Made by a program: the position numbers and the translations under genes
The notes under the pieces: model-generated
Databases searched by the model: none
Seen by the model: the letters and a program-made list of their open reading frames with translations, nothing else
Told to the model about the DNA's origin: nothing
Shown here: piece by piece, positions 11,252 to 41,549 of the stretch
Layout: each line of letters begins with the position of its first letter
How positions within the stretch are numbered: position 1 is the stretch's first letter
Virus record (IMG/VR): IMGVR_UViG_3300027917_000024
Span: 1 to 64,000 of that record
Direction: 5' to 3' (one strand)
DNA: 64,000 bases
DNA from: a virus

Positions 11252-11326
11252 TGGTAGGGCGAGGGGGATTCGAACCCCCGACTCCCTGGTTAAAGGCCAG
11301 GTACTCCTCCACTGAGTTACCGCCCT
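11252..11326 (-). tRNA. tRNA-Lys (UUU)
   Basis: Full cloverleaf with 7-bp acceptor, D, anticodon stem CCTGG/CCAGG, T stem GGGGG/CCCCC and encoded A73-CCA. The loop is CCTTTAA, so the anticodon is UUU but position 33 is C instead of the near-universal U. Confidence 0.85.
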
Positions 11327-11478
11327 GTGATCAACTCTAACGTATCTTTGGCTAGTTTGCCCCCATCTATCTCTATGTAAGACAATCCAACATGAGAGCT
11401 CGCCTTATCAGCATACCATTCCAAAGTTTTGGTTACTTCCTCATATTCTTTCATTGCTTCCTTTGCCACGTATCTCAT
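11317..11478 (-). CDS. 53-residue hypothetical protein ending in tRNA-Lys
   Basis: The frame encodes MRYVAKEAMKEYEEVTKTLE and continues to LELITGR. Its TAA stop is tRNA-Lys nucleotides 8-10, so the last three codons overlap the tRNA. The ribosome site is weak. Coding character is supported by codon use and by five other genes with the same tRNA overlap. Confidence 0.5.
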   Translation of the reverse strand: MRYVAKEAMKEYEEVTKTLEWYADKASSHVGLSYIEIDGGKLAKDTLELITGR

Positions 11479-11503
11479 AGCATTTGGTCGGCCTGTAAGA
11501 TTA

Positions 11504-11764
11504 TCAAGGAGCTGCTATAGTTTCGACATCTTCCTTTTCATCCATACATCCTGGTCGGTGACGCTTCCAGTCTGGTAGCTCATTACCTAAATGGGTATCC
11601 TCAATCCATTCCTCTAGATAATGAATGTATGCCAAGAGCGATACGACTTTCTCATCCCAATGCACATTAAGATTCCTGTGATGATCGTCAGGAGGACACA
11701 TACTACATAGCAACGAAGGATACGCTCTGAATTTTCCTCTGCAAACATGCCCATCAGGTAGCAT
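11504..11764 (-). CDS. Hypothetical Cys/His-containing protein
   Basis: The 86-residue product (MLPDGHVCRGKFRAYPSLLC...) has CSMCPPDDHH, a possible metal site, and an amphipathic helix LLAYIHYLEEWIED. AAGGAG lies 6 nt before the chosen ATG at 11764. Function unknown. Confidence 0.6.
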   Translation of the reverse strand: MLPDGHVCRGKFRAYPSLLCSMCPPDDHHRNLNVHWDEKVVSLLAYIHYLEEWIEDTHLGNELPDWKRHRPGCMDEKEDVETIAAP

Positions 11765-11782
11765 CGAGTTCTCCTTTCTCAA

Positions 11783-12103
11783 CTAGTGAAGTATCTCCTT
11801 ATTTGGTTTCTTGATTCTCCACTTATGGCCTTGGTATCCAGAGAAGGTTGCCCACCCCTCTTCTCCTCCAACAACTCCTCCATACCTCACATCGAATCCG
11901 CAGCTAAAAGTCTCTCCACATACTCTAAAAAACGCAGACTCAGATCCATTCTCAACCAACTCAATATCAGTAATAGTAGTCTTGGAATCACCTTGCATAT
12001 GGGCATCACCAAAATCCTGTAACGTCCCACCAATCCAGTCAGCCCTGCTCTCAACAAACTGGCTCCACAAGGGATATGTCTTACCGTTTATTACAAGTGT
12101 CAT
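11783..12103 (-). CDS. Hypothetical protein
   Basis: The 106-residue product is beta-rich (MTLVINGKTYPLWSQFVES...) with CGETFSCGFDVRYGG and a closing WRIKKPNKEILH. GGGGG precedes the ATG. No family recognised. Confidence 0.6.
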   Translation of the reverse strand: MTLVINGKTYPLWSQFVESRADWIGGTLQDFGDAHMQGDSKTTITDIELVENGSESAFFRVCGETFSCGFDVRYGGVVGGEEGWATFSGYQGHKWRIKKPNKEILH

Positions 12104-12106
12104 ACA

Positions 12107-12304
12107 TCACCCCCGTACACACTCTAGCTTCCAGCGCTTTGTCTTACAGTAGTCTCTCACATGCCCTAAGCTCCACCCTACCATGTACCTCAAGATAGGG
12201 GCTGAGAAAACTACCCGCCCTTCCTCAGCCTCGAACCCCGCTACAAAATGTCGAGCCGAGATCCTATAGAGAGATCGTCTTTCTCTAAGGATTGTCATCG
12301 TCAT
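12107..12304 (-). CDS. Conserved small phage protein
   Basis: The 65-residue protein contains YRISARHFVAGFEAEEG, APILRYMVGW and VRDYCKTKRWK. This pattern recurs in phage and plasmid accessory proteins of unknown function. It starts inside the 3' end of the upstream gene (12285-12668), 20-nt overlap. Confidence 0.65.
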   Translation of the reverse strand: MTMTILRERRSLYRISARHFVAGFEAEEGRVVFSAPILRYMVGWSLGHVRDYCKTKRWKLECVRG

Positions 12305-12668
12305 CTTCCCAATATTGCTCGATCAGATCACATAGAACTTCTCGGGCTCCAGAGGAAAGGCCAGCAAGACACTCTCCTGCAATCTCTCCTTGAAAATCAA
12401 AAACATGCTCCCACAGATACTCATGAAGGTACCCAAACAAAAACCCCTCGCAGAAGAAGGCATCGATAATCTCGTCACAGATAGCACACATCTTATATAC
12501 ATCCCAATTGCCTTCCCACTTCCCTGTAATGTATCTGTACTTGTGAGAGGGGAGGATCTTCTTTCCACACTCACAACACTGATACTCTTTTCTGGCAGTG
12601 ACCTCTCTATTGTTGTAGCACTCGGGATGCTCATAGTCTCCAACATAGATACAAGAGCAATCAGTCAT
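12285..12668 (-). CDS. Conserved Cys-rich phage protein
   Basis: The 127-residue protein has MTDCSCIYVGDYE, CCECGKKILPSHKYRY, GKWEGNW and MCAICDEI in order, so at least one four-Cys zinc site at residues 30-65, then a helical region. This arrangement is common to a conserved phage/prophage family without known activity. GGAGG lies before the ATG at 12668. Confidence 0.7.
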   Translation of the reverse strand: MTDCSCIYVGDYEHPECYNNREVTARKEYQCCECGKKILPSHKYRYITGKWEGNWDVYKMCAICDEIIDAFFCEGFLFGYLHEYLWEHVFDFQGEIAGECLAGLSSGAREVLCDLIEQYWEDDDDNP

Positions 12669-12984
12669 TCTTACCTCCATTCACTACCTTGAGCTCTTCC
12701 TTTCGGATCATCTTCACCATTTCCTTGTGCCCCTCTTCTGCTTCTTCCCAAGTGCTATACCTTCTCATCTCCTCATTATGCTCTCCACCAAATACCAACG
12801 TCTCGAAAAGCAAAGGAGGTCCGTTCCCAAACTGGAGATCAAGAACCAGAAAGACAGTTGAAACCTCCACATCTCCTGGTAGCTTATCATATGCTACCCG
12901 CCTGTCCTTCTCAAGAGCCCGAGCTGCCTCTTCCATACTCTTTGCTTTGACTGGCTTCTTGTCTTTCAGTACATACCATACCAT
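12661..12984 (-). CDS. Conserved hypothetical protein
   Basis: The 107-residue product has VSTVFLVLDLQFGNGPPLLFET and RRYSTWEEAEEGH, a recurring phage/plasmid protein pattern with a FG-G-P-LFET core. AGGAGG precedes the ATG. Activity unknown. Confidence 0.7.
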   Translation of the reverse strand: MVWYVLKDKKPVKAKSMEEAARALEKDRRVAYDKLPGDVEVSTVFLVLDLQFGNGPPLLFETLVFGGEHNEEMRRYSTWEEAEEGHKEMVKMIRKEELKVVNGGKND

Positions 12985-12985
12985 T

Positions 12986-13441
12986 TCAATTAACCTCCTT
13001 CTTACTCGTTTGGCGCATCAGACCCATTAGCATTGTTTCTTGAAGCTTATAGAGCTCAGCTGATTTGAATATGTGAGACAAAACACCATTGATTAAAAAC
13101 TCCGATACTTGTGCCATAGTTGCTGTCAAAAAATCCCTGTGAATAAGAAGACAAAGCGCAAAAACTTCTACAGGAATTAAAATAGGCACATCTACAACTA
13201 AAAATATTTGTGAATCAACTGTCGGATCACCTTTCTCTTTTAACTTATCAAAAAAATCCTTAACGTAATGCATCATCTCATCTTCGGATTCGTATGCCTC
13301 TGTCACTTCTTCACTTATTAGCTTTATTACATCTACTAAGCGCTCCTTGAAATCATCCAGAAGTTCCTTGGGGATGTTTGTATCTTCCCGCATGTACTTC
13401 TCTAGGATCTCTAAAATTTCTTTCTCGTTAAGTTCATCCAT
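12986..13441 (-). CDS. Hypothetical protein with central hydrophobic segment
   Basis: The 151-residue protein has an acidic helical N-terminal half and a hydrophobic stretch (ILIPVEVFALCLLI) near residue 95. It may associate with the membrane. AAGGA is 6 nt before the ATG at 13441. Function unknown. Confidence 0.55.
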   Translation of the reverse strand: MDELNEKEILEILEKYMREDTNIPKELLDDFKERLVDVIKLISEEVTEAYESEDEMMHYVKDFFDKLKEKGDPTVDSQIFLVVDVPILIPVEVFALCLLIHRDFLTATMAQVSEFLINGVLSHIFKSAELYKLQETMLMGLMRQTSKKEVN

Positions 13442-13462
13442 ACGCATTCCTTATGATAAAGT

Positions 13463-13550
13463 TGGCGGAGGCTGTAGGACTCGAACCTACGCAGGTATTA
13501 CCCTGAACTCTGATTAGCAATCAGGTACCTTACCACTCGGTCAAGCCTCC
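13463..13550 (-). tRNA. tRNA-Ser (GCU)
   Basis: Cloverleaf with a long variable arm, anticodon loop TTGCTAA (anticodon GCU), G73 and encoded CCA. One C-A mismatch at the top of the anticodon stem. Confidence 0.88.
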
Positions 13551-13565
13551 TTTTATTTTTATAAG

Positions 13566-13649
13566 CGGAGGGCATGGGATTCGAACCCACAAGAGTATTA
13601 CCTCCACATGATTTCCAGTCATGCGCCTTAACCGTTCAGCCAACCCTCC
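13566..13649 (-). tRNA. tRNA-Ser (GGA)
   Basis: Anticodon stem CATGA/TCATG with loop CTGGAAA, long variable arm and G73 support serine. CCA is not encoded. It lies 15 nt from tRNA-Ser(GCU). Confidence 0.88.
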
Positions 13650-13652
13650 ATA

Positions 13653-14294
13653 CTATTCCTTATAGAAATACCATATCCCACGAATCGCCCTCTCATCCAA
13701 ACTATTATCATCACTGTAAGGAGCATCGTATTGATAGTAGGCAGAATTATATTTGTTCGTCATTACTCTATGAAATCTCATATTACAAGACTCTAATATC
13801 CCCTCTATCATAGCATGCGAAGGTCTATTACCAATCCGCTCGTAAGAGACATTATATCCTTTCTGCTTAACCCCCACTGTTTTGTCAGGATCCGCTGAGT
13901 TAACAAACTCCGTTTCAAGTATTACATATTGATTAGGCTTCAATAACGCACACAATTCAAGCAGATTCTTCCGAGGATCTGATAAATGGTATAAAGTTCC
14001 TATATGAAAAATAATATCTACCCCAGTAATATCCGGCCATCCTATATCCATATCCCATACAAAGAATTCAAGTTCAGGATGTAATTTTTTAGCATCTTCA
14101 ATATGCTCTTCCCTAACATCGAATCCTATAATATGCGGAGTCAATTCATAAAACATCATACCTAAATGACCAACACCGCAACCAACCTCTAATATACGCT
14201 TATTGACAATGTCTTCTTTAGGGATCAAATCTACAATAGCTTCATACAACTTCCGTCTGCGAGTTCCCCAATCTCCGTGATCAAATTTAGCCAT
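13653..14294 (-). CDS. Class I SAM methyltransferase
   Basis: The 213-residue protein has RILEVGCGVGHLGMMF (motif I, about residue 33), IIGFDVREEHIEDAK (motif II), WDMDIGWPD and DIIFHIGTLYHLSD (motif IV), then ALLKPNQYVILETEF. It resembles Methyltransf_11/DUF1698-type enzymes. Substrate unknown. It sits upstream of tRNA-Ser genes, and two genes away from a glycosyltransferase and radical SAM gene, perhaps one pathway. Confidence 0.75.
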   Translation of the reverse strand: MAKFDHGDWGTRRRKLYEAIVDLIPKEDIVNKRILEVGCGVGHLGMMFYELTPHIIGFDVREEHIEDAKKLHPELEFFVWDMDIGWPDITGVDIIFHIGTLYHLSDPRKNLLELCALLKPNQYVILETEFVNSADPDKTVGVKQKGYNVSYERIGNRPSHAMIEGILESCNMRFHRVMTNKYNSAYYQYDAPYSDDNSLDERAIRGIWYFYKE

Positions 14295-14317
14295 CTATCT
14301 GTACTCCTATTATATTT

Positions 14318-14388
14318 AGGGCCAAGGAGAATTGAACTCAGACCGGTGGATTGAAAGTCCCCCATCCTGACCATTAGAACATAGCCCC
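14318..14388 (-). tRNA. tRNA-Glu (UUC), degenerate
   Basis: The anticodon loop CTTTCAA is canonical for Glu(UUC), and TTCAATT resembles a T-loop. However the acceptor stem has internal mismatches, the anticodon stem has a G-A pair and only three T-stem pairs form. CCA is not encoded. It may be functional with a relaxed fold or be decaying. Confidence 0.55.
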
Positions 14389-14400
14389 TTTTACTATTAG

Positions 14401-14474
14401 AGTGCATGATGGGAGTCGAACCCCTCTCATCAGGGTGGAAACCTGAGGTACCGCCACGTATACCAGACTCGCAC
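14401..14474 (-). tRNA. tRNA-Gly (UCC)
   Basis: Anticodon stem TCAGG/CCTGA with loop TTTCCAC (UCC) and T-loop TTCGACT. The acceptor has one A-A mismatch and the D arm is irregular. It starts 4 nt after tRNA-Phe. Confidence 0.75.
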
Positions 14475-14478
14475 AATC

Positions 14479-14556
14479 TGGTGGAAGGGACTGGAATTGA
14501 ACCAGTGACCTTCTGGGCTTCGACCAGACGCTCTACCATAACTGAGCTACCCCTCC
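14479..14556 (-). tRNA. tRNA-Phe (GAA)
   Basis: Complete cloverleaf with encoded A73-CCA and anticodon stem TCTGG/CCAGA. The loop is TCGAAGC, giving GAA in the anticodon position but C at position 33. The upstream gene's TAG stop is nucleotides 8-10. Confidence 0.8.
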
Positions 14557-14756
14557 AAAAGCATACAACCTTTTATTATAGCTACAAGACTAAAGGATAA
14601 TCCAAATCCTATCAAGAGCACAGATACCCCAACCCTTCTAGTAAAAAAAATATCATCATCCAAGTATGCAATGAAACCTAGAAAAGACGAAAACAAAGCT
14701 ACAATAAAAAAGGTACATCCTAGAAAAAGCAACACATAACCCCAAAATTCTTCCAT
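14547..14756 (-). CDS. Small two-helix membrane protein ending in tRNA-Phe
   Basis: The 69-residue product has hydrophobic helices at about residues 7-30 and 43-62 separated by a short acidic/basic loop (YLDDDIFFTRR). AAGGAG precedes the ATG. The TAG stop is formed by tRNA-Phe nucleotides 8-10, a 10-nt overlap. Role unknown. Confidence 0.6.
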   Translation of the reverse strand: MEEFWGYVLLFLGCTFFIVALFSSFLGFIAYLDDDIFFTRRVGVSVLLIGFGLSFSLVAIIKGCMLLEG

Positions 14757-14770
14757 CTCATTCTCCTTTT

Positions 14771-14846
14771 TGGGTTAACCGGAGAGAATCGAACTCTCAC
14801 CTCCAGGGCCACAACCTGACGTGCAAACCTTTACACCACGGCTAAC
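14771..14846 (-). tRNA. tRNA-His (GUG)
   Basis: Loop TTGTGGC gives GUG. An extra G at -1 pairs with C73, the identity element of tRNA-His, and CCA is encoded. Confidence 0.88.
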
Positions 14847-14855
14847 ATAGTAGAC

Positions 14856-15587
14856 TCAAGATATTCCCGCATTTTTGAGATATGTTGTCATTGCTTTTAT
14901 TGCTGCGTCTACATTCCTCGAACCGTGAATATGCATAATATGAGGACCATTATGATGAAGGCTAATAGATGGATTAGTACTATTATGGCCACCAATATCC
15001 TGAAAATTCAATCTTGGATCATAAATTTTTTCTCTTATTTCTTCTGGTGACATACCTTGCATATGAAAAAGGGTATTATAGATTATACATTCATATGCCC
15101 ATACATCTTTCCAGTCAGAAGCAATCTTATCTCCAGTCTCCCACATCTCATTTGTTATAGCTCCTACTGGATAGTACCTGACATTAGACATCATCCACGG
15201 CTTCAAATGATAATAAAGCTTTGGTTCAACCTTATGTGAATAACTACAAAACTGATTCTGGATATCAAACATCACAAACTTGTCATACTTACCAAAAATC
15301 TCAGTCGGTTTAATACAAACGGAATCTGAATCTACCCATAGAATATTACAGTCTCCTGCCTGGTAGATTTTCTTTATCCGATAATAAATATCCTGAAACA
15401 TTCTATGATAATTTTCAGCCAGTCCCTCTAATACTATAACCTCATCCAAATCCTTCAAGTTCTTTCGGAAGGAGCGTATACATAAATCTGTTAATTGTCG
15501 ATACTTATTAAATATTAGCAATCTCTTCTTGTCTAGCCCTTCTTTATCATTAAGGTCATAACAAGCTGTAATAAGTATATTAGCCAT
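14856..15587 (-). CDS. DxD glycosyltransferase-like protein
   Basis: The 243-residue protein has ILITACYDLND at the N-terminus, ILWVDSDSVCIKP near residue 85 (the DxD metal site of GT-A fold enzymes), and GGHNS plus HIMHIHGSRN near the C-terminus. This resembles GT8-like transferases. Acceptor unknown. It overlaps the radical SAM gene upstream by 8 nt, so they are translated together. Confidence 0.65.
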   Translation of the reverse strand: MANILITACYDLNDKEGLDKKRLLIFNKYRQLTDLCIRSFRKNLKDLDEVIVLEGLAENYHRMFQDIYYRIKKIYQAGDCNILWVDSDSVCIKPTEIFGKYDKFVMFDIQNQFCSYSHKVEPKLYYHLKPWMMSNVRYYPVGAITNEMWETGDKIASDWKDVWAYECIIYNTLFHMQGMSPEEIREKIYDPRLNFQDIGGHNSTNPSISLHHNGPHIMHIHGSRNVDAAIKAMTTYLKNAGIS

Positions 15588-16875
15588 CCAACGCCCCTTT
15601 CAGCTCTATATTTCTACTTCCAGCTACCTCTTTCAGATACTTAAACCATTCCACAATCTGAGGGCTCGTATTAGGTTCAAAATCCTCTTTCCCTATCGTA
15701 TGGTAATCTTCAAAATTAGTGTTCTTGTTTAACACATAACCATATTTTTCAGGAGTCTGCCATACACTGCATCCTGGGAAAGGTTGAAAAATATGGATAC
15801 CAAACGCATCAACATACTCTGCACATGTAATAAACTCAGCCGTCTCAGCCACCGTTTCTTCTGTCTCACCAGGGAAACCTACAATCATCTGCCCCCTAAT
15901 TCTTATTCCTACCTTCTCACACGTAGAAATTGCATTGTAAGCCTGTTCTACTGTCGTCTTTTTGTTCATCATCTTTAGCATATTATTGGATCCGCTCTCA
16001 AAACCAAATACAAATTGCAAACATCCCGCATCCTTCATGGTTCGTAACAAATCATAATCACAACGATCCACTCTATTCAGACAGTGCCACTTTATTCCTA
16101 ATTTCTTTATCTTGTCACAGAACTCATACACTCGCTCCTTACTTATAACAAAAGTGTCATCTAAAATGTAAATGAGCTCCACCTTATATTTATTAATCAA
16201 GGTCTCCACTTCTTCTATGGTTCTATCTACACTATGACTCCTCACCTTTCCTCCCCAGATATAACTCTGAGCACAAAAATTACAATTGAAAGGACATCCC
16301 CTAGAAGTAATAAGTGTTGCTTCCCTGCACTCTCCTAATAAATACTTAAATGTCTGAGATCTTGAGTATCTATAAAAATCTACAAGATCTAAATCAGGTG
16401 GAGGAAAATCATCTATATCTGCAGTCAATGGGGTTTGTGGTGTACGAACAACCTTTCCATCAGAATCTTTATATGCTATATTAAAAACCTGATGTAAAGG
16501 GAGATGCAATAATTCAAACATTGCAATCTCACCCTCTCCTACCACACATACATCCGCATCTGTATTACTCAAAACATGCTCTGGAACAGTTGTAGCATGA
16601 GGCCCACCAACCACAACAAATGCATTCTCCCTTTCCTTTAATTTTTTTGTGATAGCTTGTATCTGAGGAAAATTAGGGGAGGTTCCTGTAATCCCATAGC
16701 AATCCCCAACGGGTATCTTCCACTGACGTTCTTCCAACCCAGACAAGTCACATAGCTGCACATCAATATTTCGTTTTTCCAAATAAGATGCAACATACAA
16801 TATTCCTAAAAAGGGGAGATCAGTATCCGAAATTAGCCAAGGACTCGGTGGGATAATAAGCACCACCTTTGGCAT
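15580..16875 (-). CDS. B12-binding-domain radical SAM enzyme
   Basis: The 431-residue protein has an N-terminal cobalamin-binding-type Rossmann region with GITGTSPNFPQ, VVVGGPHATTVPE and VCVVGEGE (residues 60-116). A radical SAM core follows with C194, C198 and C201 (CPFNCNFC). Later blocks YILDDTFV, FGFESGS and GQMIVGFPGETEE fit the TIM barrel. Family members methylate or rearrange unreactive carbons in lipids, antibiotics or nucleosides. Substrate unknown; coupling to a glycosyltransferase suggests a modified sugar or base. Confidence 0.88.
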   Translation of the reverse strand: MPKVVLIIPPSPWLISDTDLPFLGILYVASYLEKRNIDVQLCDLSGLEERQWKIPVGDCYGITGTSPNFPQIQAITKKLKERENAFVVVGGPHATTVPEHVLSNTDADVCVVGEGEIAMFELLHLPLHQVFNIAYKDSDGKVVRTPQTPLTADIDDFPPPDLDLVDFYRYSRSQTFKYLLGECREATLITSRGCPFNCNFCAQSYIWGGKVRSHSVDRTIEEVETLINKYKVELIYILDDTFVISKERVYEFCDKIKKLGIKWHCLNRVDRCDYDLLRTMKDAGCLQFVFGFESGSNNMLKMMNKKTTVEQAYNAISTCEKVGIRIRGQMIVGFPGETEETVAETAEFITCAEYVDAFGIHIFQPFPGCSVWQTPEKYGYVLNKNTNFEDYHTIGKEDFEPNTSPQIVEWFKYLKEVAGSRNIELKGALDG

Positions 16876-16910
16876 AAGTACACATCTCCATTTTGTTTTT
16901 AGTTATCACC

Positions 16911-16939
16911 ATTATACCATACCCATTCTAACATTTGTC
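16911..16939 (-). promoter_or_regulatory. Candidate extended -10 promoter
   Basis: Minus strand TATAAT (16911-16916) preceded by TATGG, so an extended -10. The -35 at 17-nt spacing is GACAAA, a weak match. It would drive the radical SAM gene. Confidence 0.5.
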
Positions 16940-17164
16940 TGTAATTTTGGTATAAGCTCTGCAGCGAAGACTACTCTCTAGTTCTCGCAATTGCTCACAA
17001 ACCTCATCGAATTCAAAAAGTATACACTCATAATATTTCAAATCAGCCACATCCATAACACCAAAAAAAATATCTAAACTATCATCTGCCGCTTTAATCT
17101 CCATCAACCGATTTCTAAGTTGTTTTCTAATTTTCTTTGCTTCTTTTCGTATTTCTTCAGACAT
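16928..17164 (-). CDS. Coiled-coil hypothetical protein
   Basis: The 78-residue product is highly charged and helical (MSEEIRKEAKKIRKQLRN... EQLRELESSL). No domain recognised. GAGG precedes the ATG. It lies between tRNA-Tyr and the radical SAM gene. Confidence 0.6.
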   Translation of the reverse strand: MSEEIRKEAKKIRKQLRNRLMEIKAADDSLDIFFGVMDVADLKYYECILFEFDEVCEQLRELESSLRCRAYTKITDKC

Positions 17165-17174
17165 AACAACCTCG

Positions 17175-17265
17175 TGGCGGGTGAGGGAGGAGTCGAACCT
17201 CCGGTGTTTTCTCGTAGAGTCACGGTTTTACAGACCGCTGCCCTCGCCTCTAGGCACACTCACCC
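17175..17265 (-). tRNA. tRNA-Tyr (GUA)
   Basis: Long variable arm, loop CTGTAAA (GUA), 7-bp acceptor and encoded CCA. Confidence 0.9.
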
Positions 17266-17277
17266 ACTAATAAATTA

Positions 17278-17688
17278 TTACTCTCCTACCTCTTCCAAAT
17301 ATGCTTTATTAATCCAAAAGGAACAATTACCATGACCGTCTTCTTCCATACACACTGACGGAGAATTCATTTTTTCTTTTTGCTCATTAGATAACAAAGA
17401 ATAGTATTTCTCACTCATCGTAAATGAACAGAGTCCACCATCTTCTCTCAGACACAGAGAAGGCATCACATCCTCAACAGCCATAGGTGGAGTTTCATCA
17501 TCTAACCCTACCAAGCCTCTGCCCTCACCTGGAAAATAATCGATATTACTATCATCTTTACTAGCTGGATTTGTAAGTACGGAATGCCCAATCACCGGCG
17601 TCGTGCCATTCTGTAAAATAAGAAAAGAGCCTGTAGATATAAGAGCACCTAACACAACACATCCAATCGCTATTCCTAATAATCTCAT
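17278..17688 (-). CDS. Exported protein with duplicated Cys motif
   Basis: The 136-residue protein has an N-terminal hydrophobic segment (LLGIAIGCVVLGALIS) that is a signal anchor or signal peptide. Two similar units follow: PSLCLREDGGLCSF and PSVCMEEDGHGNCSF, each with a Cys pair likely to form a disulfide outside the membrane. AAGGAG precedes the ATG. Role unknown. Confidence 0.6.
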   Translation of the reverse strand: MRLLGIAIGCVVLGALISTGSFLILQNGTTPVIGHSVLTNPASKDDSNIDYFPGEGRGLVGLDDETPPMAVEDVMPSLCLREDGGLCSFTMSEKYYSLLSNEQKEKMNSPSVCMEEDGHGNCSFWINKAYLEEVGE

Positions 17689-17749
17689 GGTACATCTCCT
17701 TTCCTTGATCTGTTTACTTACTTAATTCCATTTATATATTTATATATGA

Positions 17750-17834
17750 AGCCTAGGGAGAGATTCGAACTCCCGATGGACTTACGTCTGAGGCTTACAA
17801 AACCCCTGCTCTCGACCACTAAAGCGACCTAGGC
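17750..17834 (-). tRNA. tRNA with UGU anticodon (Thr?), long variable arm
   Basis: The cloverleaf closes well: acceptor GCCTAGG/CCTAGGC, anticodon stem GGGGT/GCCTC, loop TTTGTAA (UGU, threonine) and T-loop TTCGAAT. The variable region is 15 nt with a GAC/GTC stem, a type II feature normal for Ser, Leu or Tyr, not Thr. G1-C72 and C2-G71 fit threonine identity. CCA is not encoded. Confidence 0.75.
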
Positions 17835-17835
17835 A

Positions 17836-18741
17836 TTAAAATCCAAACTGTCCTGTATCCACCCACTCCATACTAATTAATGACCAGAAATCTAATGCTA
17901 GCTTATCCTCCGTATAAGCATATGGAAGCCATCCATAACCAGCTTCTCCCCATCCCCTCCCCCAACTATTCAGGAACTTTATAGCTCCCTTACTGGTTGC
18001 CCTTGTCTTTTCATCTTTTATAACAAGATTATCATCATATCCCACCGCCAACACAGCATGCCCACCAATACAAGCATCCTTTTTATTAGGATACGGAATC
18101 TTCCCACCACCACCATCCTTATAATTCTCAAAAACATAAAATCCAAACATAGATGGCATTCCGGCTGCAAGATATTTCTTTACTGAATAAAGAACTGCAC
18201 TTCCTTTCTTATCCAGTTTTACAGGATCATGAGAAAAATATGTCAAAGCTTCCCAGTTATCAGCTAATCCGTATATAAATGGGCCTGGAGCCTTGTCAAA
18301 TCCCTTGATAGAATATTTAAAATATTGCTCTGGAGGCACCCCAAACAATACCAAAGCCCCCATTGTACTTCTGAGATAAGCTCCTGTATCACCATGATCG
18401 ACACCTATAAGCCACCGTGTAACCTTATAAACAAATCTACGAGAACCCAAAATTGACTTCCCAAAAGCTTTTTCCTGATAGTATTCAACCATAGACGTTG
18501 CGGCATGAGCAGTACAAGATCCAAGTTTCCCTTGATCCTTGACAGTAGTAATCCACTTACCGAGATCAACTTTTTCGGGGAGAGGTGCTGGATCAGAACC
18601 TAACGGTATTCCCATCTTCTCAACTTGGCTCTTTATATCCAGCTCAGTATAGTCTCGTAAATCTGGGTATGACCGTAACCAACCCGTACCAAAAACTTTT
18701 TCAGCTTCTACATCTTCAATCCTGTGTGTTAATAATGACAT
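17836..18741 (-). CDS. Papain-family (C1A) cysteine peptidase
   Basis: The 301-residue protein has the papain triad blocks: VKDQGKLGSCTAHAATS with catalytic Cys about residue 76 and its oxyanion Gln, GGHAVLAVGYDD with the catalytic His, and FLNSWGRGWGEAGYGWLPY with the Asn. A ~55-residue N-terminal part is too short for a full propeptide, and there is no signal peptide. AGGAGG precedes the ATG at 18741. It may process phage or host proteins inside the cell. It ends 2 nt before the UGU tRNA. Confidence 0.85.
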   Translation of the reverse strand: MSLLTHRIEDVEAEKVFGTGWLRSYPDLRDYTELDIKSQVEKMGIPLGSDPAPLPEKVDLGKWITTVKDQGKLGSCTAHAATSMVEYYQEKAFGKSILGSRRFVYKVTRWLIGVDHGDTGAYLRSTMGALVLFGVPPEQYFKYSIKGFDKAPGPFIYGLADNWEALTYFSHDPVKLDKKGSAVLYSVKKYLAAGMPSMFGFYVFENYKDGGGGKIPYPNKKDACIGGHAVLAVGYDDNLVIKDEKTRATSKGAIKFLNSWGRGWGEAGYGWLPYAYTEDKLALDFWSLISMEWVDTGQFGF

Positions 18742-18767
18742 ACTTGATCCTCCTCTCATTGTGGTTG

Positions 18768-18844
18768 TGGCGGGAATGAAGGGATTCGAACCCTCGACTT
18801 CCTGATCGACAGTCAGGTACGCTAGGCCGCTGCGTCACATTCCC
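18768..18844 (-). tRNA. tRNA-Asp (GUC)
   Basis: Acceptor GGGAATG/CATTCCC, loop CTGTCGA (GUC), G73 and encoded CCA. The upstream gene's TGA stop is made by nucleotides 8-10. Confidence 0.9.
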
Positions 18845-19311
18845 TGGCTATTATTCAAAGCTCTATTTTTCTCTTCTTCCCAATCCTTATGATAAATATA
18901 CCCAAACTGATACACTATAAAATCAAGTAGATGGGTAAGCCCTTCCACTTTATCTTCAAGCTCTCGTATCTGCTGCTCTTGCTTCATTAACTGTGTGGTA
19001 GGATTAACTCTCAAAACTGGAACACTTTCTCTGGTCATCATACTCTCCCCTACTGGATCTGGAACTGGAACTGGAATTTGATGAAGAAGAACTACTAGTT
19101 CCAGTTCAAGCTCTAAATCGAGTAGTAGTTCTTCTTCATCAAGTTCCAGAGAATCTTTTTTATACCCCACTGTCTTTGCATATCTAAATCTATACCCACC
19201 AAGGACAGGATCTGATTTTCGCATAGCTTTAGACACAATAGTTTGTGGAATATTTAAATCATGTGAAATCTGTTTAATAGTATAATATCGTTTAATAAAC
19301 TTCCCTTTCAT
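18835..19311 (-). CDS. HTH-containing hypothetical protein
   Basis: The 158-residue protein starts with a likely helix-turn-helix (YYTIKQISHDLNIPQTIVSK) and a wing-like GGYRFRYAK. An acidic/Leu-rich stretch (LDEEELLLDLELELELVV) is encoded by a large inverted repeat at 19071-19149. A coiled coil follows (MKQEQQIRELEDKVEGL). The TGA stop lies inside tRNA-Asp. The start lacks a clear ribosome site. It may be a phage regulator. Confidence 0.6.
   Translation of the reverse strand: MKGKFIKRYYTIKQISHDLNIPQTIVSKAMRKSDPVLGGYRFRYAKTVGYKKDSLELDEEELLLDLELELELVVLLHQIPVPVPDPVGESMMTRESVPVLRVNPTTQLMKQEQQIRELEDKVEGLTHLLDFIVYQFGYIYHKDWEEEKNRALNNSQGM
19071..19149. repeat. 26-bp inverted repeat inside a gene
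   Basis: Arms 19071-19096 and 19124-19149 are complementary over 26 bp with a single mismatch, around a 27-nt loop. A second overlapping pair (19062-19072 with 19097-19107) is also complementary. All lie within the coding sequence of 18835-19311. Confidence 0.85.
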
Positions 19312-19325
19312 ATATTTTTACTATT

Positions 19326-19664
19326 TCAATTGCTACAAGTGCTTTGGAATACTTCGTCACACTGGTGTGAAGGCACATCTATATAGTCGCACCCCCGTTG
19401 ACGACATAAAGTTTCACAAGTCGTCTGACATCGTAAAATTTGGTGTGTAAAACTCCAGCAGTTAGCACAATGCCCCTCACAAATACCGGCACAGGAACCA
19501 CTACTTCCCCTGTATCCATCATCGTAGCTTCCCCCGTAATAGCCTCCATACTCACCACAGCCACTCAAAACAGAGGCTATGATCATAAAGAGGAATACAA
19601 AAAGTAAAATTAACAACCCTAACATCATCAAAAACGCTAGCCTGTCTTTGATTTTGGCAAGCAT
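19326..19664 (-). CDS. Cys-rich lipoprotein
   Basis: The 112-residue product begins MLAKIKDRLAF, has a long hydrophobic segment and the lipobox VLSGC near residue 37, then a Gly/Tyr-rich linker and about 12 Cys (CAGICEGHCANC and others). It should be lipid-anchored and disulfide-rich. The ATG at 19664 has AAGGAG 8 nt upstream; another ATG 11 codons earlier (19697) is also possible. Role unknown, perhaps surface exclusion. Confidence 0.6.
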   Translation of the reverse strand: MLAKIKDRLAFLMMLGLLILLFVFLFMIIASVLSGCGEYGGYYGGSYDDGYRGSSGSCAGICEGHCANCWSFTHQILRCQTTCETLCRQRGCDYIDVPSHQCDEVFQSTCSN

Positions 19665-19708
19665 CTTCTCATCTCCTTGTCTAGGTAATCGACTCATACT
19701 TTACTCCA

Positions 19709-20013
19709 CTATTTACTACACTTACAAAATGGATCCAGCTTTACACAATAGACTTGTCCAACCACCGCACCAGCACACAGTTCCTTATGGTAACTCCTAT
19801 CATTCTGATCACAGCTCCACAATGACTTGCCGTAGCCTTCAAAATGTGCTATAATATGCTTTTCTGTCCTGCTCGCACAGCCCCCAGAACTCGTCCTCAC
19901 ATCCAGTTCAAAGTCAGTAAGCTTTGCCTTCTTCACACACTCGCAGCAATTCCACTCCGAGCATGTAGGAGCAAGAAGGAATGGCAGCAGTAAAAAATAG
20001 CAAGGATTTTCAT
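19709..20013 (-). pseudogene. Frameshifted exported Cys protein
   Basis: An ATG at 20011-20013 with GGGAG upstream begins MKILAIF, but the frame soon stops. Adding one T to the T6 run at 19992-19997 joins it to LLLPFLLAPTCSEWNCC and on to the long downstream frame (...FELDVRTSSGGC to DPFCKCSK). The repaired protein, about 101 residues, would have a signal peptide with a lipobox-like LAPTC. Either a sequencing indel, a slippage site or real decay. Confidence 0.55.
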
Positions 20014-20033
20014 GTTATCTCCCTTTCTTTTGA

Positions 20034-20116
20034 TGCAGGTGGAGGGAATCGAACCCCCAATCCCGAAGGCACACGGGCCTAAACCGTGCCTGTATCCCTA
20101 GTTCCAGCACACCTGC
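20034..20116 (-). tRNA. tRNA-Leu (UAG)
   Basis: Acceptor GCAGGTG/CACCTGC, anticodon stem CACGG/CCGTG with loop TTTAGGC (UAG), long variable arm and A73. TCA follows instead of CCA. Confidence 0.88.
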
Positions 20117-20163
20117 ATAAATCATATGGCGTATAGTGCCCAAACAACTCATATAGTATCGGC

Positions 20164-20244
20164 TCATCTATAAAGCATCCAAATAGCAAAAATACATACA
20201 GCACCTAAAGTCCCATAGCAGATCACAACAGCAAGATTTTCCAT
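20164..20244 (-). CDS. 26-residue single-pass membrane peptide
   Basis: The frame encodes MENLAVVICYGTLGAVCIF and a short end (AIWMLYR), one hydrophobic helix with a basic C-terminus. AAAGGAG is 7 nt before the ATG, 1 nt after the stop of the upstream gene. Tiny but well supported by its ribosome site. Confidence 0.5.
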   Translation of the reverse strand: MENLAVVICYGTLGAVCIFAIWMLYR

Positions 20245-20245
20245 G

Positions 20246-20473
20246 CTAATCTCCTTTATCAGCTGGTACTCTTTTCAAATGCTGCAATAAAAATATAAGA
20301 TCGTCTATGTCCTCAAAATTGAAGTCCCAACACATCCCTGCAGTATCATCTTTATCACCAGGAAAAGGATACCAAATACAGCAGCCGACCTTCCCTTTGT
20401 ACTCTATCTTATCCCCTCTAATGTTCCCTTGCTTGTATATATGAAACTTATCTTTCTTTTTCACCTGTACCAT
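20246..20473 (-). CDS. Hypothetical protein
   Basis: The 75-residue product (MVQVKKKDKFHIYKQGN...) has VGCCIWYPFPGDKDD and an acidic helix (FEDIDDLIFLLQHL). GGAGG precedes the ATG at 20473, which overlaps the stop of the upstream gene. Function unknown. Confidence 0.6.
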   Translation of the reverse strand: MVQVKKKDKFHIYKQGNIRGDKIEYKGKVGCCIWYPFPGDKDDTAGMCWDFNFEDIDDLIFLLQHLKRVPADKGD

Positions 20474-20760
20474 CAATCATCCTCCATTGAGTACTTAACA
20501 ACCACATGCTTCGGATTACCACAACCGCACATAAGAGTCTTCAATGGAACTTCCTCTCGCTTCTCAAAAATGTATTCCTTCCCACAAGGCATCCCAATTT
20601 TAAGTACAGGACATTTCAAATCCCGGTCACCATCCAAAAGCATATCCACTAAAATATTTCGATGCACCGCATGAATACCTACAAATTCTCCTAAGTCTTC
20701 TCCTTCAACTAGGTCTATTATTGCCTCCTTCTCAATATGATCTGTAGTTTTCTCCTCCAT
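20473..20760 (-). CDS. Hypothetical Cys-containing protein
   Basis: The 95-residue protein (MEEKTTDHIEKEAIIDLVEG...) contains CPVLKIGMPCGKEY and LMCGCGNPKH, possibly a zinc site. GGAGG lies before the ATG at 20760. Function unknown. Confidence 0.6.
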   Translation of the reverse strand: MEEKTTDHIEKEAIIDLVEGEDLGEFVGIHAVHRNILVDMLLDGDRDLKCPVLKIGMPCGKEYIFEKREEVPLKTLMCGCGNPKHVVVKYSMEDD

Positions 20761-20790
20761 TTTATTCCTCCATGAGTTTACCACACAGTT

Positions 20791-20864
20791 TCGGGATGGG
20801 GTGATTTGAACACCCGACTCCCTGCGCCCAAGGCAGGTGCTCTTCCAGGCTGAGCTACACCCCG
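20791..20864 (-). tRNA. tRNA-Pro (UGG)
   Basis: Anticodon stem CCTGC/GCAGG with loop CTTGGGC (UGG), acceptor CGGGGTG/CATCCCG, A73. CCA is not encoded. Nucleotides 8-10 supply the TAG of the GNAT gene. Confidence 0.88.
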
Positions 20865-21307
20865 TTAAAATCCTTTCTCATCCTTTGCATATCATCATCC
20901 CACCCAGATATATCGTAGTAGCCTAACTTACAATAAAGCCGTCGAGCACTCCAATTATTATCTCTAACATACAAAGCAGAGTACATACACCCTCTATCAC
21001 GAGCTCTACCTTCGAGAGTTGCAAGCAATCTAGATGCTACACCATTCCTTCTGAACGCTGGAACAACAGAGACATCCTGTACCTGCAAACTCTTCTTCCG
21101 TTTCCCATTATAAACAACTCCTACAGCCTTCCCTATTATTTGGTTACATATTTCCGCCTTCAAAACAATCGCACAGGGATTTCTAAGCCTTCTCACAAAA
21201 CTTTGCCTATCCCACTGCCCCATATACCGAAATGCCTTCTCCTCTACTGCCACTAATTCACAAACATCATTAAGAGTTGCCTCCCTTATATGTACTCTTC
21301 TTTCCAT
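20855..21307 (-). CDS. GNAT-family N-acetyltransferase
   Basis: The 150-residue protein matches the RimI-like GNAT fold: VHIREATLNDVCEL at the start, LQVQDVSVVPAFRRNGVASRLL with the acetyl-CoA loop (RxxGxA) near residue 90, and ALYVRDNNWSARRLYCKLGYY. Substrate unknown. The ATG at 21307 with GGGAGG is preferred to an upstream one. The TAG stop is inside tRNA-Pro. It overlaps the end of the upstream gene by 38 nt. Confidence 0.8.
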   Translation of the reverse strand: MERRVHIREATLNDVCELVAVEEKAFRYMGQWDRQSFVRRLRNPCAIVLKAEICNQIIGKAVGVVYNGKRKKSLQVQDVSVVPAFRRNGVASRLLATLEGRARDRGCMYSALYVRDNNWSARRLYCKLGYYDISGWDDDMQRMRKDFNGV

Positions 21308-21776
21308 CGCTCCTCCCTTTCTTGCTCTTTTTAACACTTGTACTAATCTTATCATCGCAAGCAGCAGTTCTATTCTCACCTAAAGCAACCTTGTTGTTCC
21401 AGCGTTCAGAACTTCTACGTAGCCGCACCCTCTCACGATTCTCTGCGTACCATTTCTTGAAGTAAGCAGCGATCCTTTCTCTATTCCTTCTACGATATCT
21501 CTTAGCATATTCCCTGATCTTATCCTGATTCTTTAACCTGTATTCAGCTTGTTTCAACAGCCTAGTTTCTCTATGCTTTATATGTACAAACTTGGAACAT
21601 TCGTAACAGTATTTGTACTTTCGATTTCTAACACTGCACCCAGAATCTCGGAAGTCATGACCACGTCCACAAAGCGATCCAAGATTCCACACTTCTGGAT
21701 TATAGCCATGTATCATCAACAGCCTCTTTTCCTCCGCTTCACTATACGGAGAATACTTTTTCTTCTCTTTCTTCAT
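21270..21776 (-). CDS. Zinc-finger protein with HNH-type charged repeats
   Basis: The 168-residue protein has a Cys/His cluster LCGRGHDFRDSGC...YKYCYECSKF near residues 35-65. About three 15-residue helical repeats follow (NQDKIREYAKRYRRR, NRERIAAYFKKWYAE, NRERVRLRR). The same repeat type occurs in the HNH endonucleases at 54809-57649. The tail is Lys/Ser-rich. AGGAGG precedes the ATG at 21776. It probably binds DNA; a homing-nuclease origin is possible. Confidence 0.65.
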   Translation of the reverse strand: MKKEKKKYSPYSEAEEKRLLMIHGYNPEVWNLGSLCGRGHDFRDSGCSVRNRKYKYCYECSKFVHIKHRETRLLKQAEYRLKNQDKIREYAKRYRRRNRERIAAYFKKWYAENRERVRLRRSSERWNNKVALGENRTAACDDKISTSVKKSKKGRSDGKKSTYKGGNS

Positions 21777-21796
21777 TTTACCTTTCCTCCTTTTTC

Positions 21797-21872
21797 TGGT
21801 AGACGAGATAGGATTCGAACCTACGATCCCTTGCTTGTAAGGCAAGTGCTTTAACCACTAAGCTACTCGTCT
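21797..21872 (-). tRNA. tRNA-Val (UAC)
   Basis: Stem CTTGC/GCAAG with loop CTTACAA (UAC), A73 and encoded CCA. Nucleotides 8-10 form the TAG of the upstream gene. Confidence 0.9.
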
Positions 21873-22132
21873 GTTTTTACATACTTCCAGGTAGTATTTC
21901 TTCCTAGTTTTTCCTCCTTAGTTTTTCGTATATCCAGTTTTGTAACAATTACTTCTACGTCCACTTCCCACTCATGCCACGTATCACATTTATCACATAC
22001 AGCATAGAATATACCAACTTCGTGTGGTTCCAATGTTTTAAGTTCACACGGGCCGTCCTTACTTTGAAAATTTTCTAGTTCCACTCCACAACTGCAAGTA
22101 GCCTTATAATCCACGTAATCGAACATGCCCAT
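21863..22132 (-). CDS. Conserved phage protein (MGMFDYV family)
   Basis: The 89-residue protein starts MGMFDYVDYKATCSCGVEL and continues FQSKDGPC, LEPHEV, FYAVCDKCDTWHEW. This conserved phage/plasmid family has a four-Cys site and no known activity. The TAG stop is formed by tRNA-Val nucleotides 8-10. Confidence 0.78.
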   Translation of the reverse strand: MGMFDYVDYKATCSCGVELENFQSKDGPCELKTLEPHEVGIFYAVCDKCDTWHEWEVDVEVIVTKLDIRKTKEEKLGRNTTWKYVKTDE

Positions 22133-22172
22133 AGTTTATTATCTCTTAACTTTCCCCATTAGTATAATCTTC

Positions 22173-22388
22173 TCACACCTTCTCTTTCGATAATGCCTGA
22201 GCCAATCTAGAGCTCGCCTCTTTTACGAGACGATTATACCACTCTTCAACTCCGTCATGTCGGCGGCACACAACTTTAAAGGGATCCGGTATGCTCCTAT
22301 GATAAACCCACTTGTCTGAAGCCTTCTCCTTCAACATCTTCTTACAGATAAAACACTGTACTTCCGCCTCCTTCGAAATTTCAGCCAT
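22173..22388 (-). CDS. Small Cys/His hypothetical protein
   Basis: The 71-residue product has CFICKKMLKEKASDKWVYH and VVCRRHDG, so a CxxC...H...C site is likely. It starts directly after the stop of the upstream metallopeptidase-like gene. Function unknown. Confidence 0.6.
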   Translation of the reverse strand: MAEISKEAEVQCFICKKMLKEKASDKWVYHRSIPDPFKVVCRRHDGVEEWYNRLVKEASSRLAQALSKEKV

Positions 22389-22916
22389 TTACCTAGCCTT
22401 CCCCGGTTTCTTCCGTCTTTTTACTGGAACTCTCTTCATTTTCATCTTTGCCTCTCTCTCCAACCAATTATACATCATAAGACTGGTTCTGACACTGTAG
22501 AAGTTATCGAGCTTCTCCTTCTCGTATAGTACATCTTTGAACTCATCCGTCTCTCTAATAGCCTCAGCCTCTATTCCAATCTTTCTCATCTTCTTGTAAT
22601 TAAATCCTGATCGGACCCATTCCATAACATATGTCACATAAAACCCTACCGATCCTTGAGGCATCGTTTTTTGTTGTGCTACGTGAACAAGCTCATGATG
22701 TATAAGTAATGCCTGAAAATATCTATTACTAGAATCATAAACAGAATCATCGATAAGTATAAGATCTTCATGAAAAGTAATCCCTAAATGCCAAAACCAA
22801 GTAACCTTATAGAATTCTACTTCATCATATAACTCAACAGGCATAAATCCCCTAAATTCATGCCCGTACTTATCAAGATACTCCCTAATTCTTTCATCTG
22901 GGTACCATCTGTCCAT
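22389..22916 (-). CDS. HExxH metallopeptidase-like protein
   Basis: The product, about 175 residues, has LLIHHELVHVAQQ near residue 75, the HExxH zinc motif in the form typical of DUF4157-like gluzincins. GIEAEAIRETDEF follows, where E-x-x-A may supply the third ligand. The C-terminus is very basic. The start at 22916 is chosen over a GTG nine codons earlier. Proteolysis is inferred. Confidence 0.6.
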   Translation of the reverse strand: MDRWYPDERIREYLDKYGHEFRGFMPVELYDEVEFYKVTWFWHLGITFHEDLILIDDSVYDSSNRYFQALLIHHELVHVAQQKTMPQGSVGFYVTYVMEWVRSGFNYKKMRKIGIEAEAIRETDEFKDVLYEKEKLDNFYSVRTSLMMYNWLEREAKMKMKRVPVKRRKKPGKAR

Positions 22917-22987
22917 ATGTTTTGACCCCACTAGGCATATCACAATTGCTCAGAATGGGATCAGTTACTAGCCCCGTTAGTTGTTGT

Positions 22988-23061
22988 TGGGCGTGGTGGG
23001 AGTCGGACCCACAAAACCGGGAGCTTAAATCCCGTACCTATACCAATTCGGTTACACGCCC
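22988..23061 (-). tRNA. tRNA-Leu (UAA) with short variable loop
   Basis: Acceptor GGGCGTG/CACGCCC, anticodon stem CGGGA/TCCCG with loop TTTAAGC (UAA), A73. The variable loop is only 5 nt, whereas bacterial tRNA-Leu has a long arm. T-loop reads TCCGACT, an unusual C at 55. CCA not encoded. Confidence 0.75.
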
Positions 23062-23435
23062 TTCTTTTTCGTCTTCGTTTTCTCCACTGACAAAAACCCG
23101 AGTTCACTTAAATATTTAAAATCCCGTATACAAACTACTGGTGCGAATCTCTTTCTGTATTCATCTGTATCCTTAGGAATTGAATCTCCTTCCTTCATGC
23201 CTTCCATCTTAAGATCCGATATAATATGTAACCTAGCAGCTGCGGCGGCCCCATCTCCCCACATCTGTCTTACAATCTCAATCCCTTCCTTATTATGTAA
23301 TACGTCCCGGTGCATTGGATCGAAGCTACCATCAGCCAACCATGCATACTGATCAAGATATCGATGTACATGCTCATACGTCTCACCAAACTTCATTAGA
23401 CTCTCGGCCATATGCTCCGATAGTTTCATGGCCAT
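23052..23435 (-). CDS. Hypothetical protein ending in tRNA-Leu
   Basis: The 127-residue product (MAMKLSEHMAESLMKFGE...) is helical with VRQMWGDGAAAAARLHI and a Lys-rich end. Its ATG overlaps the TGA of the 33-residue gene (TGATG). Its TAA stop is tRNA-Leu(UAA) nucleotides 8-10. Function unknown. Confidence 0.6.
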   Translation of the reverse strand: MAMKLSEHMAESLMKFGETYEHVHRYLDQYAWLADGSFDPMHRDVLHNKEGIEIVRQMWGDGAAAAARLHIISDLKMEGMKEGDSIPKDTDEYRKRFAPVVCIRDFKYLSELGFLSVEKTKTKKKGV

Positions 23436-24413: not shown

Positions 24414-25133
24414 TCAGGTTGGTAAAAGAAGGATTCGCCTAAGTGTGGCAAGCTCGGCCTCAAGCAGAAGAATTTTGTTTATCGCTTGTATGTGATCCTC
24501 TCTTGCGGCACTTGTCTCGGCCTCGGCCTTCTCTAGTTTCCCAAGCAACTCCTCGGCCTGGGCCTTGTAGTAGTCCCGCTCTGCCCGTAGACAACCGATT
24601 TCCTCATAGAATGCATCTGCTTGTCGGTCAAATTCCTTGGCATCTGCTTTCCAACCGGCAAGCTCGGCCTTAATTCGCCGTATTTCTTTTGCATCTGATA
24701 GACTCGGTTCCCCCGTATCTCGACACTGCCTATCGTCTCCAATGGCGTTGCCAATGCCATCACGATAATGCTTGAGGCGTTGCTGCGCCTCGGCAAGCTC
24801 GGCCTCGGTTTTCTCCCATCCATCCCATGCGCTTTCTAGCCATTCCTCAAAGAATTTACATTCCCGTTTCGCCTCGGCAAGCTCGGCCTTGCGTTGGTCG
24901 TTTTCTCCGTCATAGATCACAATTTGCTCTCCAAGAAGTTTGACGTTATCCCGCATCTCGACAAGCTCGGCCTCAAGCAGAAGAATTTTGTTTATCGCTT
25001 GTATGTGATCCTCTCTTGCGGCACTTGTCTCGGCCTCGGCCTTCTGTGCTCTCTGTCGCCACTTTACGGTTTCTTTGATCGGTGGTGCCCCGCAATGTTC
25101 ACAATGTGGCATGAGTCTATCGGATTCCGTCAC
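24414..25133 (-). CDS. Long coiled-coil protein with internal duplication
   Basis: The 239-residue protein has an N-terminal CEHCG and then continuous coiled coil with KAELAEAK and EAELAEAQ units. A perfect 84-bp repeat (24449-24532 and 24962-25045) encodes EAETSAAREDHIQAINKILL twice. The GTG start overlaps the stop of the upstream gene (GTGA). After the second repeat the frame ends abruptly (RRILLLPT), while another frame continues with coding-like sequence, so the 3' end may be rearranged. Confidence 0.6.
   Translation of the reverse strand: MTESDRLMPHCEHCGAPPIKETVKWRQRAQKAEAETSAAREDHIQAINKILLLEAELVEMRDNVKLLGEQIVIYDGENDQRKAELAEAKRECKFFEEWLESAWDGWEKTEAELAEAQQRLKHYRDGIGNAIGDDRQCRDTGEPSLSDAKEIRRIKAELAGWKADAKEFDRQADAFYEEIGCLRAERDYYKAQAEELLGKLEKAEAETSAAREDHIQAINKILLLEAELATLRRILLLPT
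24449..24532. repeat. 84-bp perfect direct repeat, copy 1
   Basis: Identical to 24962-25045 over 84 bp; both copies lie in frame in the coiled-coil gene, 171 codons apart. Confidence 0.9.
24962..25045. repeat. 84-bp perfect direct repeat, copy 2
   Basis: Identical to 24449-24532. It encodes the N-terminal coiled-coil copy of the 24414-25133 product. Confidence 0.9.
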
Positions 25134-36659: not shown

Positions 36660-37514
36660 ATGACAGAGATACCTGATTTTGTTAGAATGGAAGATTATGT
36701 AGAAAGGGCTAATGGAACTTATACTCGGTATTCCACACCTGAACTAAATCTTCGGATCCGACAGATGATTGAGATGTTAGGCCTTGATCCAAAAGATGGG
36801 GAGATGAAGAAGAAGATATGGAGTGACAGAACACAAGAAAGAATCATAAGCCATTTACTTTCATATGCTATACAAGAAAAAAAAGTAGATTATACTCACA
36901 CATGGTACAAATGGTTAAAGAATAAAATAAACGAATTTCATTACAGATATACAAAACATCAGCTTATACATAAAGATACTATCGATGCGTACAAAAAACT
37001 ATTCAGATTATACCTATTTATTACAACAGAGACAGGCGTATTAAAGGCAGAAGATAAAGGCAAGGAATTAAATTACTATATAGCAGCGCAATATAGTGCC
37101 AGGTACAGTCCAGTGAAAGGCTTATTGACTAAATTTACAGTTGATACATTTTTATTCAATCGTAATATCCTTTACTACAGGGATTTTAAAAAGAACGGGT
37201 TTCCCCCAACACTCATCATACCAGGACCAAAGCTCCTATACCACCCCAAAGAAACCAATGAACACAAACGTAGACTTCGTAACCTACCTGATATAAAATG
37301 TACTCCATTTCTTGACATCACCCTTCCTATCTTAAACCTCAGAATACCAGCACTTACCAGGAAGACAAACGATTGGCTCCATCATTACCTCCGTTCCATC
37401 GAGCTCATGATGATTCGAGAAAGATTGCTTGCTCGACCTTACAATCGCTTTCTTCTATCTGTTGAGCATTTGAGAGTATACAAGGAGATAATGAGTCGTG
37501 CAAGTACAAAGTAA
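36660..37514 (+). CDS. Hypothetical protein of the replication operon
   Basis: The 284-residue protein (MTEIPDFVRMEDYVERANG...) is helical and basic, with YTHTWYKWLKNKINEFHYRY and RIPALTRKTNDWLHHYL. No motif recognised. Its place between an SF2 helicase and the primase-helicase, whose GTG start overlaps its end by 17 nt, suggests a replication accessory role such as helicase loading, but this is inference. Confidence 0.65.
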   Translation: MTEIPDFVRMEDYVERANGTYTRYSTPELNLRIRQMIEMLGLDPKDGEMKKKIWSDRTQERIISHLLSYAIQEKKVDYTHTWYKWLKNKINEFHYRYTKHQLIHKDTIDAYKKLFRLYLFITTETGVLKAEDKGKELNYYIAAQYSARYSPVKGLLTKFTVDTFLFNRNILYYRDFKKNGFPPTLIIPGPKLLYHPKETNEHKRRLRNLPDIKCTPFLDITLPILNLRIPALTRKTNDWLHHYLRSIELMMIRERLLARPYNRFLLSVEHLRVYKEIMSRASTK

Positions 37515-41176: not shown

Positions 41177-41549
41177 ACTTGAAGATATGTTTGCAGAAAT
41201 TGATGAGCAAGAAGAAATCGAAAACATAGAAGAGCTAGTAAATGAGCTGTGGGATGTATACCACCGGTTCTCGGAATTATCGCACAGAGTCATGAGAGTA
41301 TTCAAAAGGTATATGCCAGGGAAGAATGAGCGTATCGGTTTGAGTAACTATATCCTCACACTCTTTGACAAGCATGAAAAACTGACTCGGCAGGATATCA
41401 TGGAGTATCTCATAATAGGTGATTTTGAATATACAATATCTTCAAAAAGTCTTACGGATAGCCTGTACTTTCTCTTAAAAACTAATAGGCTAATTCGGTA
41501 CAAAGATCCATCAACTGGAGAGCATTGTTATAAAAGGGGGAATGGATAA
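41163..41549 (+). CDS. Winged-helix-like protein
   Basis: The 128-residue protein has an acidic N-terminus and a C-terminal winged-helix-like block (LTRQDIMEYL, SSKSLTDSLYFLLKTNRLIRY). AGGAGG is 4 nt before the ATG. Its TAA overlaps the ATG of the polymerase gene. It may be a regulator or polymerase partner; function unknown. Confidence 0.55.
   Translation: MSKRKLEDMFAEIDEQEEIENIEELVNELWDVYHRFSELSHRVMRVFKRYMPGKNERIGLSNYILTLFDKHEKLTRQDIMEYLIIGDFEYTISSKSLTDSLYFLLKTNRLIRYKDPSTGEHCYKRGNG

Follow-up and report, generated by a model that had tools for sequence, protein, structure and literature searches.

Six genes of an uncultivated virus stop at nucleotides 8–10 of the following tRNA, a recurrent overlap that is probably a by-product of gene packing

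Genes that end within tRNAs

Six protein open reading frames (ORFs) in the window, the 64,000-nucleotide stretch of DNA analyzed here from the 105-kb record of an uncultivated virus, end exactly at nucleotides (nt) 8–10 of the tRNA that follows, ten bases inside the tRNA. The overlap is real, recurrent, and mostly ordinary, with a neat structural cause, and we consider it likely that the tRNA serves as a back-up stop within a tightly packed phage operon, for the most part as a passive by-product of packing and not as a new control switch. Nearly all tRNAs carry U at position 8, often with purines at positions 9 and 10. A gene entering a T8-R9-R10 tRNA would therefore, in one frame out of three, meet UAG, UAA, or UGA, the structural reason already given in a sequence-only reading of this DNA.

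ARAGORN identifies 14 tRNAs in the window, all on the minus strand between 11252 and 23061. Rfam confirms 12 of these, with Gly (14400–14474) and Leu-UAG (20032–20117) falling below the cut-off. The sequence-only reading had placed six stops within these tRNAs, and its coordinates proved exact in each case when compared to the ARAGORN tRNAs, the ORFs, and the sequence itself. The overlapped tRNAs, each supported by ARAGORN, Rfam, and the sequence, and the ORFs that end in them are as follows:

11252..11326, minus strand: tRNA-Lys(UUU), nt 8–10 = TAA at 11317–11319
11317..11478, minus strand: ORF of 53 aa ending at Lys nt 8–10; codon score 8.2, clear Shine-Dalgarno sequence absent
14479..14556, minus strand: tRNA-Phe(GAA), nt 8–10 = TAG at 14547–14549
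14547..14756, minus strand: hydrophobic ORF of 69 aa ending at Phe nt 8–10; not called by the codon model
18768..18844, minus strand: tRNA-Asp(GUC), nt 8–10 = TGA at 18835–18837
18835..19311, minus strand: gene of 158 aa ending at Asp nt 8–10; codon score 22.7
20791..20864, minus strand: tRNA-Pro(UGG), nt 8–10 = TAG at 20855–20857
20855..21379, minus strand: GNAT acetyltransferase gene ending at Pro nt 8–10; Pfam PF00583, 1.1e-14
21797..21872, minus strand: tRNA-Val(UAC), nt 8–10 = TAG at 21863–21865
21863..22132, minus strand: gene of 89 aa, Cys-rich, ending at Val nt 8–10; codon score 16.7
22988..23061, minus strand: tRNA-Leu(UAA), nt 8–10 = TAA at 23052–23054
23052..23435, minus strand: gene of 127 aa, DUF6915-like, ending at Leu-UAA nt 8–10; codon score 17.3

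The genes upstream of the Pro, Asp, Val, and Leu-UAA tRNAs are well supported, though the DUF6915 similarity of the last (Pfam E-value 1.5e-5) lies just under the Pfam cut-off. The acetyltransferase probably starts at the ATG at 21307, which has a strong Shine-Dalgarno sequence (GGGAGGAG). The marginal 53-aa Lys ORF and the 69-aa Phe ORF have weaker support than the other four; the Phe ORF lacks a codon signal and has a good Shine-Dalgarno sequence (AAAAGGAG) immediately after tRNA-His. That some of the upstream frames are not genes at all, and end at a tRNA simply because any open frame must, seems very improbable for the set as a whole: the short length and weak codon signal of the Lys and Phe ORFs fit such a reading, but the other four carry a codon signal and two of them have Pfam similarity.

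Within 20 nt of a tRNA start, the window has ten gene ends. Six of the genes are read in the same frame as nt 8–10 (the Phe ORF among them, placed by eye since the codon model had not called it), and each of the other frames holds two. All of the same-frame genes take their stop from the tRNA. The four genes in other frames stop at −14, −12, −5, and −3, and the tRNAs beside them have no stop triplet at nt 8–10. Two of the genes in other frames are:

13653..14294, minus strand: methyltransferase gene, own stop 3 nt before tRNA-Ser(GGA)
17836..18759, minus strand: papain-like peptidase gene, own stop 1 nt before tRNA-Thr

For three further tRNAs (Ser-GCU, Glu, and Gly) the element directly upstream is another tRNA, and no gene was called within 100 nt upstream of tRNA-Leu-UAG. 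When the six overlapped tRNAs were folded together with 30 nt of upstream message, the acceptor stem was retained in five and Pro adopted an alternative fold, a result that does not inform function. A candidate explanation in which the A10-U25 pair of the Lys, Asp, and Leu tRNAs had been selected to create TAA or TGA was dropped, as tRNAs in the survey described below also have TAA or TGA at nt 8–10.

Relatives of the region are scarce. Neither a megablast search with the region nor tblastn searches with four of the upstream proteins revealed a close relative among phages; the matches were limited to distant acetyltransferases. A related-locus search with three window proteins recovered one contig that is nearly identical and four distant relatives identified by DNA polymerase, which carry at most two tRNAs. 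The nearly identical contig, from IMG/VR and the only relative found for the region, is 99.995% identical over it, too close to gauge conservation of the upstream frames within the lineage of the window.

Survey of viral and cellular loci

A broader set of tRNAs was collected using three T-arm patterns that are blind to nt 8–10 and to upstream genes, which yielded 288 viral loci with 1,183 distinct tRNAs. These tRNAs are accordingly ones selected by their T-arm patterns, with an encoded CCA, and the genes beside them were predicted with a home-made, unbenchmarked caller. A same-strand gene lies directly upstream of 322 of the tRNAs, and where such genes are close, most stop 2–12 nt before the tRNA. 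Among the stops that fall inside a tRNA there is a sharp peak at nt 8, with 13 cases in 13 loci (one each), of which one (L314) is discounted since it reads through a preceding tRNA; no other position within the tRNA has more than three. The peak arises because in half of the tRNAs (50% of the 1,183) an ORF entering in that frame first meets a stop at nt 8–10, while one entering in the other two frames runs deeper, to nt 13, 19, 21, or 36, or straight through.

The sequence-only reading had suggested a mode of gene packing, and packing as a recurrent mode is borne out. Whether such overlaps are more frequent than chance, a point on which that reading would stand or fall, has a two-part answer: the overlap exceeds chance as a positional peak in viruses generally, but genes are not over-represented in the frame that can use the nt 8–10 stop. 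Upstream of viral tRNAs that bear the stop, genes are spread over frames 0, 1, and 2 in the ratio 25:29:29, and of the 29 genes in frame 2, the frame that can use the stop, 13 (~45%) do so and 15 keep a stop of their own. Even frames are expected if the tRNA stop only replaces a redundant stop belonging to the gene. Selection for the overlap would over-represent the usable frame, which is not seen, and this argues against such selection in general.

Compared to the survey, use of the tRNA stop is higher in the window (6/6 versus 13/29, Fisher P = 0.022), and the frame skew of 6:2:2 has P = 0.077 (six or more of ten). The window is a moderately extreme example, picked after the fact, of a general pattern, and a lineage-specific factor behind both the complete use of tRNA stops and the skew is possible.

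A cellular control, comprising 118 loci of bacteria and archaea collected with one of the three T-arm patterns, contained no stop at tRNA nt 8. Few upstream genes in these loci stop within 20 nt of the tRNA (3/69 versus 114/322 in viruses). The absence of nt 8 stops and the rarity of close genes in cellular loci indicate that the arrangement belongs to dense phage genomes.

Comparison with known systems

The window contains what defines a phage CDS-tRNA 5′ overlap, a same-strand CDS with its stop inside the next tRNA. In the literature searched, no description of an nt 8–10 rule was found, and the arrangement is already annotated in public records of cultured Proteus phages of the genus Novosibvirus. 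One survey locus belongs to Proteus phage PM135, and its Novosibvirus relatives were then examined. As in the window, the CDS before tRNA-Gly in Stubb, RP7, Proteus phage 2, and vB_PMC-PL1 is annotated to end at nt 8–10 (TAA), although the tRNA itself is unannotated in the vB_PMC-PL1 record and was found there by ARAGORN. In Proteus phage VTCCBPA139 (L438, 1741–2025) the overlapping frame is intact, yet the CDS is missing from the annotation, unlike in its close relatives. The protein is conserved through its last, tRNA-encoded residues, with a middle portion that sets PM135 apart from its relatives. For the five closer phages, dN/dS is 0.08–0.22 in those pairs where synonymous changes suffice for an estimate; pairs with PM135 give 0.43–0.57 near saturation, and two near-identical pairs, with one synonymous change against three non-synonymous, are uninformative. 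The gene is thus conserved as coding, and a selected protein gene can live with the overlap. The stretch examined in these phages differs from the window in having one nt 8–10 gene, not six, and in a second gene that stops at nt 4–6 of tRNA-Asn.

Escherichia phage T5 (AY543070), the classical case, resembles the window in that its tRNAs are scattered among small genes and four CDSs end within the next tRNA. The T5 stops, however, begin at nt 4, 12, 21, and 22 and not at nt 8, and two of the four genes are HNH endonucleases (hegC and hegD), while the six overlapping genes of the window match no endonuclease family. Mitochondrial tRNA punctuation provides a further comparison; there, protein genes and tRNAs directly adjoin in polycistronic transcripts that are cut at tRNA 5′ ends, and polyadenylation completes the truncated stops. 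The stops in the window are instead complete and lie inside the tRNA, such that they would be lost on cleavage, and the window does not follow the mitochondrial arrangement.

A CDS overlapping a tRNA may be lost in gene annotation, as the VTCCBPA139 record illustrates, and a simple rule accepting tRNA nt 8–10 as a legitimate end for phage genes would help to recover real ones. Additionally, the overlap marks cultured phages suited to measuring a putative conflict of tRNA processing with translation.

Origin and consequences of the overlap

In the evolutionary route that we infer, a point change or small deletion removes the original stop of a gene in the same frame as the tRNA stop, which would then take over. 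Such a loss would add about three codons with function kept, and the change would be tolerated; stop loss in the other frames would result in reading deep into the tRNA or past it. The geometry of the overlap has a consequence for expression. Cutting by RNase P at the 5′ end of the tRNA would strip the upstream message of its stop, two complete codons, and part of another, so that one RNA molecule could become a mature tRNA or a complete message, never both. The mutual exclusion proposed in the sequence-only reading is retained here on geometric grounds. Geometry and general knowledge also suggest that a ribosome positioned at the stop would keep the 5′ half of the tRNA unfolded. This exclusion probably lowers the output of the upstream gene, and it need not be a regulatory device.

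It should be noted that the same geometry could serve a selected form of control, in which RNase P leaves the upstream mRNA without a stop, tRNA maturation is coupled to gene expression, and tmRNA clears the products. Every same-frame gene of this phage uses the tRNA stop and the arrangement persists in Novosibvirus, in keeping with such control. Set against this are a survey in which the required frame is not over-represented, upstream genes in the window that share no Pfam family, four neighboring genes that stop just before their tRNA instead, and a search of the window and the remaining 41 kb of the record that found no tmRNA gene (nor, in those 41 kb, any tRNA). We regard selected control as unlikely, and the suggestion that the repetition is itself a sign of control or of tmRNA rescue is not upheld by the even frames and the tmRNA search. 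A specific version, in which the tRNA stop became fixed at all same-frame genes since RNase P shuts off the upstream genes as tRNAs accumulate, appears slightly less likely still.

Insertion of mobile elements is about as doubtful as selected control. Here the tRNAs, or homing endonuclease genes adjacent to them, would have been inserted such that the upstream gene was cut and capped by a tRNA. Homing endonuclease motifs do occur in 9/30 survey genes reading into tRNAs versus 7/119 of those just upstream (P = 0.0007; motifs chosen after some cases had been seen, with Pfam and PHROGs counts, not tallied per gene, agreeing in direction), and both hegC and hegD of T5 end inside tRNAs. The six genes in the window, however, show no match to endonuclease families, and the GNAT domain match extends to residue 154 of 174, with the protein looking untruncated. 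A back-up stop reached through the loss of redundant stops remains the preferred reading for the window.

Other features of the region

The endonuclease genes that read into a tRNA 5′ end come from survey loci L025, L028, L045, L046, L050, L124, L160, L279, and L304, along with hegC and hegD of T5 (L317). Their frequency suggests endonuclease insertion at tRNA 5′ ends, and T4 SegB is known to spread the tRNA region (cited in PMC6409571 and PMC2988022).

Among the tRNAs of the window, a B12-binding radical SAM protein (Pfam) is encoded at 15580–16875, near the methyltransferase and papain-like peptidase genes, and these three genes are unusual cargo for a tRNA region. Just after tRNA-Val, a protein with long charged repeats and no Pfam match is encoded at 21270–21776; similar repeats (e.g., REENKDKI) occur in HNH-like proteins at 54809–55390 and 56408–57649. 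Beyond the tRNA region, ORFs at 31326–34184, 34187–36643, 37498–40623, and 41549–44422 correspond to predicted ribonucleotide reductase, helicase, primase-helicase, and DNA polymerase, and each has an apparent intein-like insert, judged by eye from the translations. An exact 84-bp direct repeat (24449–24532 and 24962–25045) lies within the frame 24414–25133 and gives rise to a repeated peptide.
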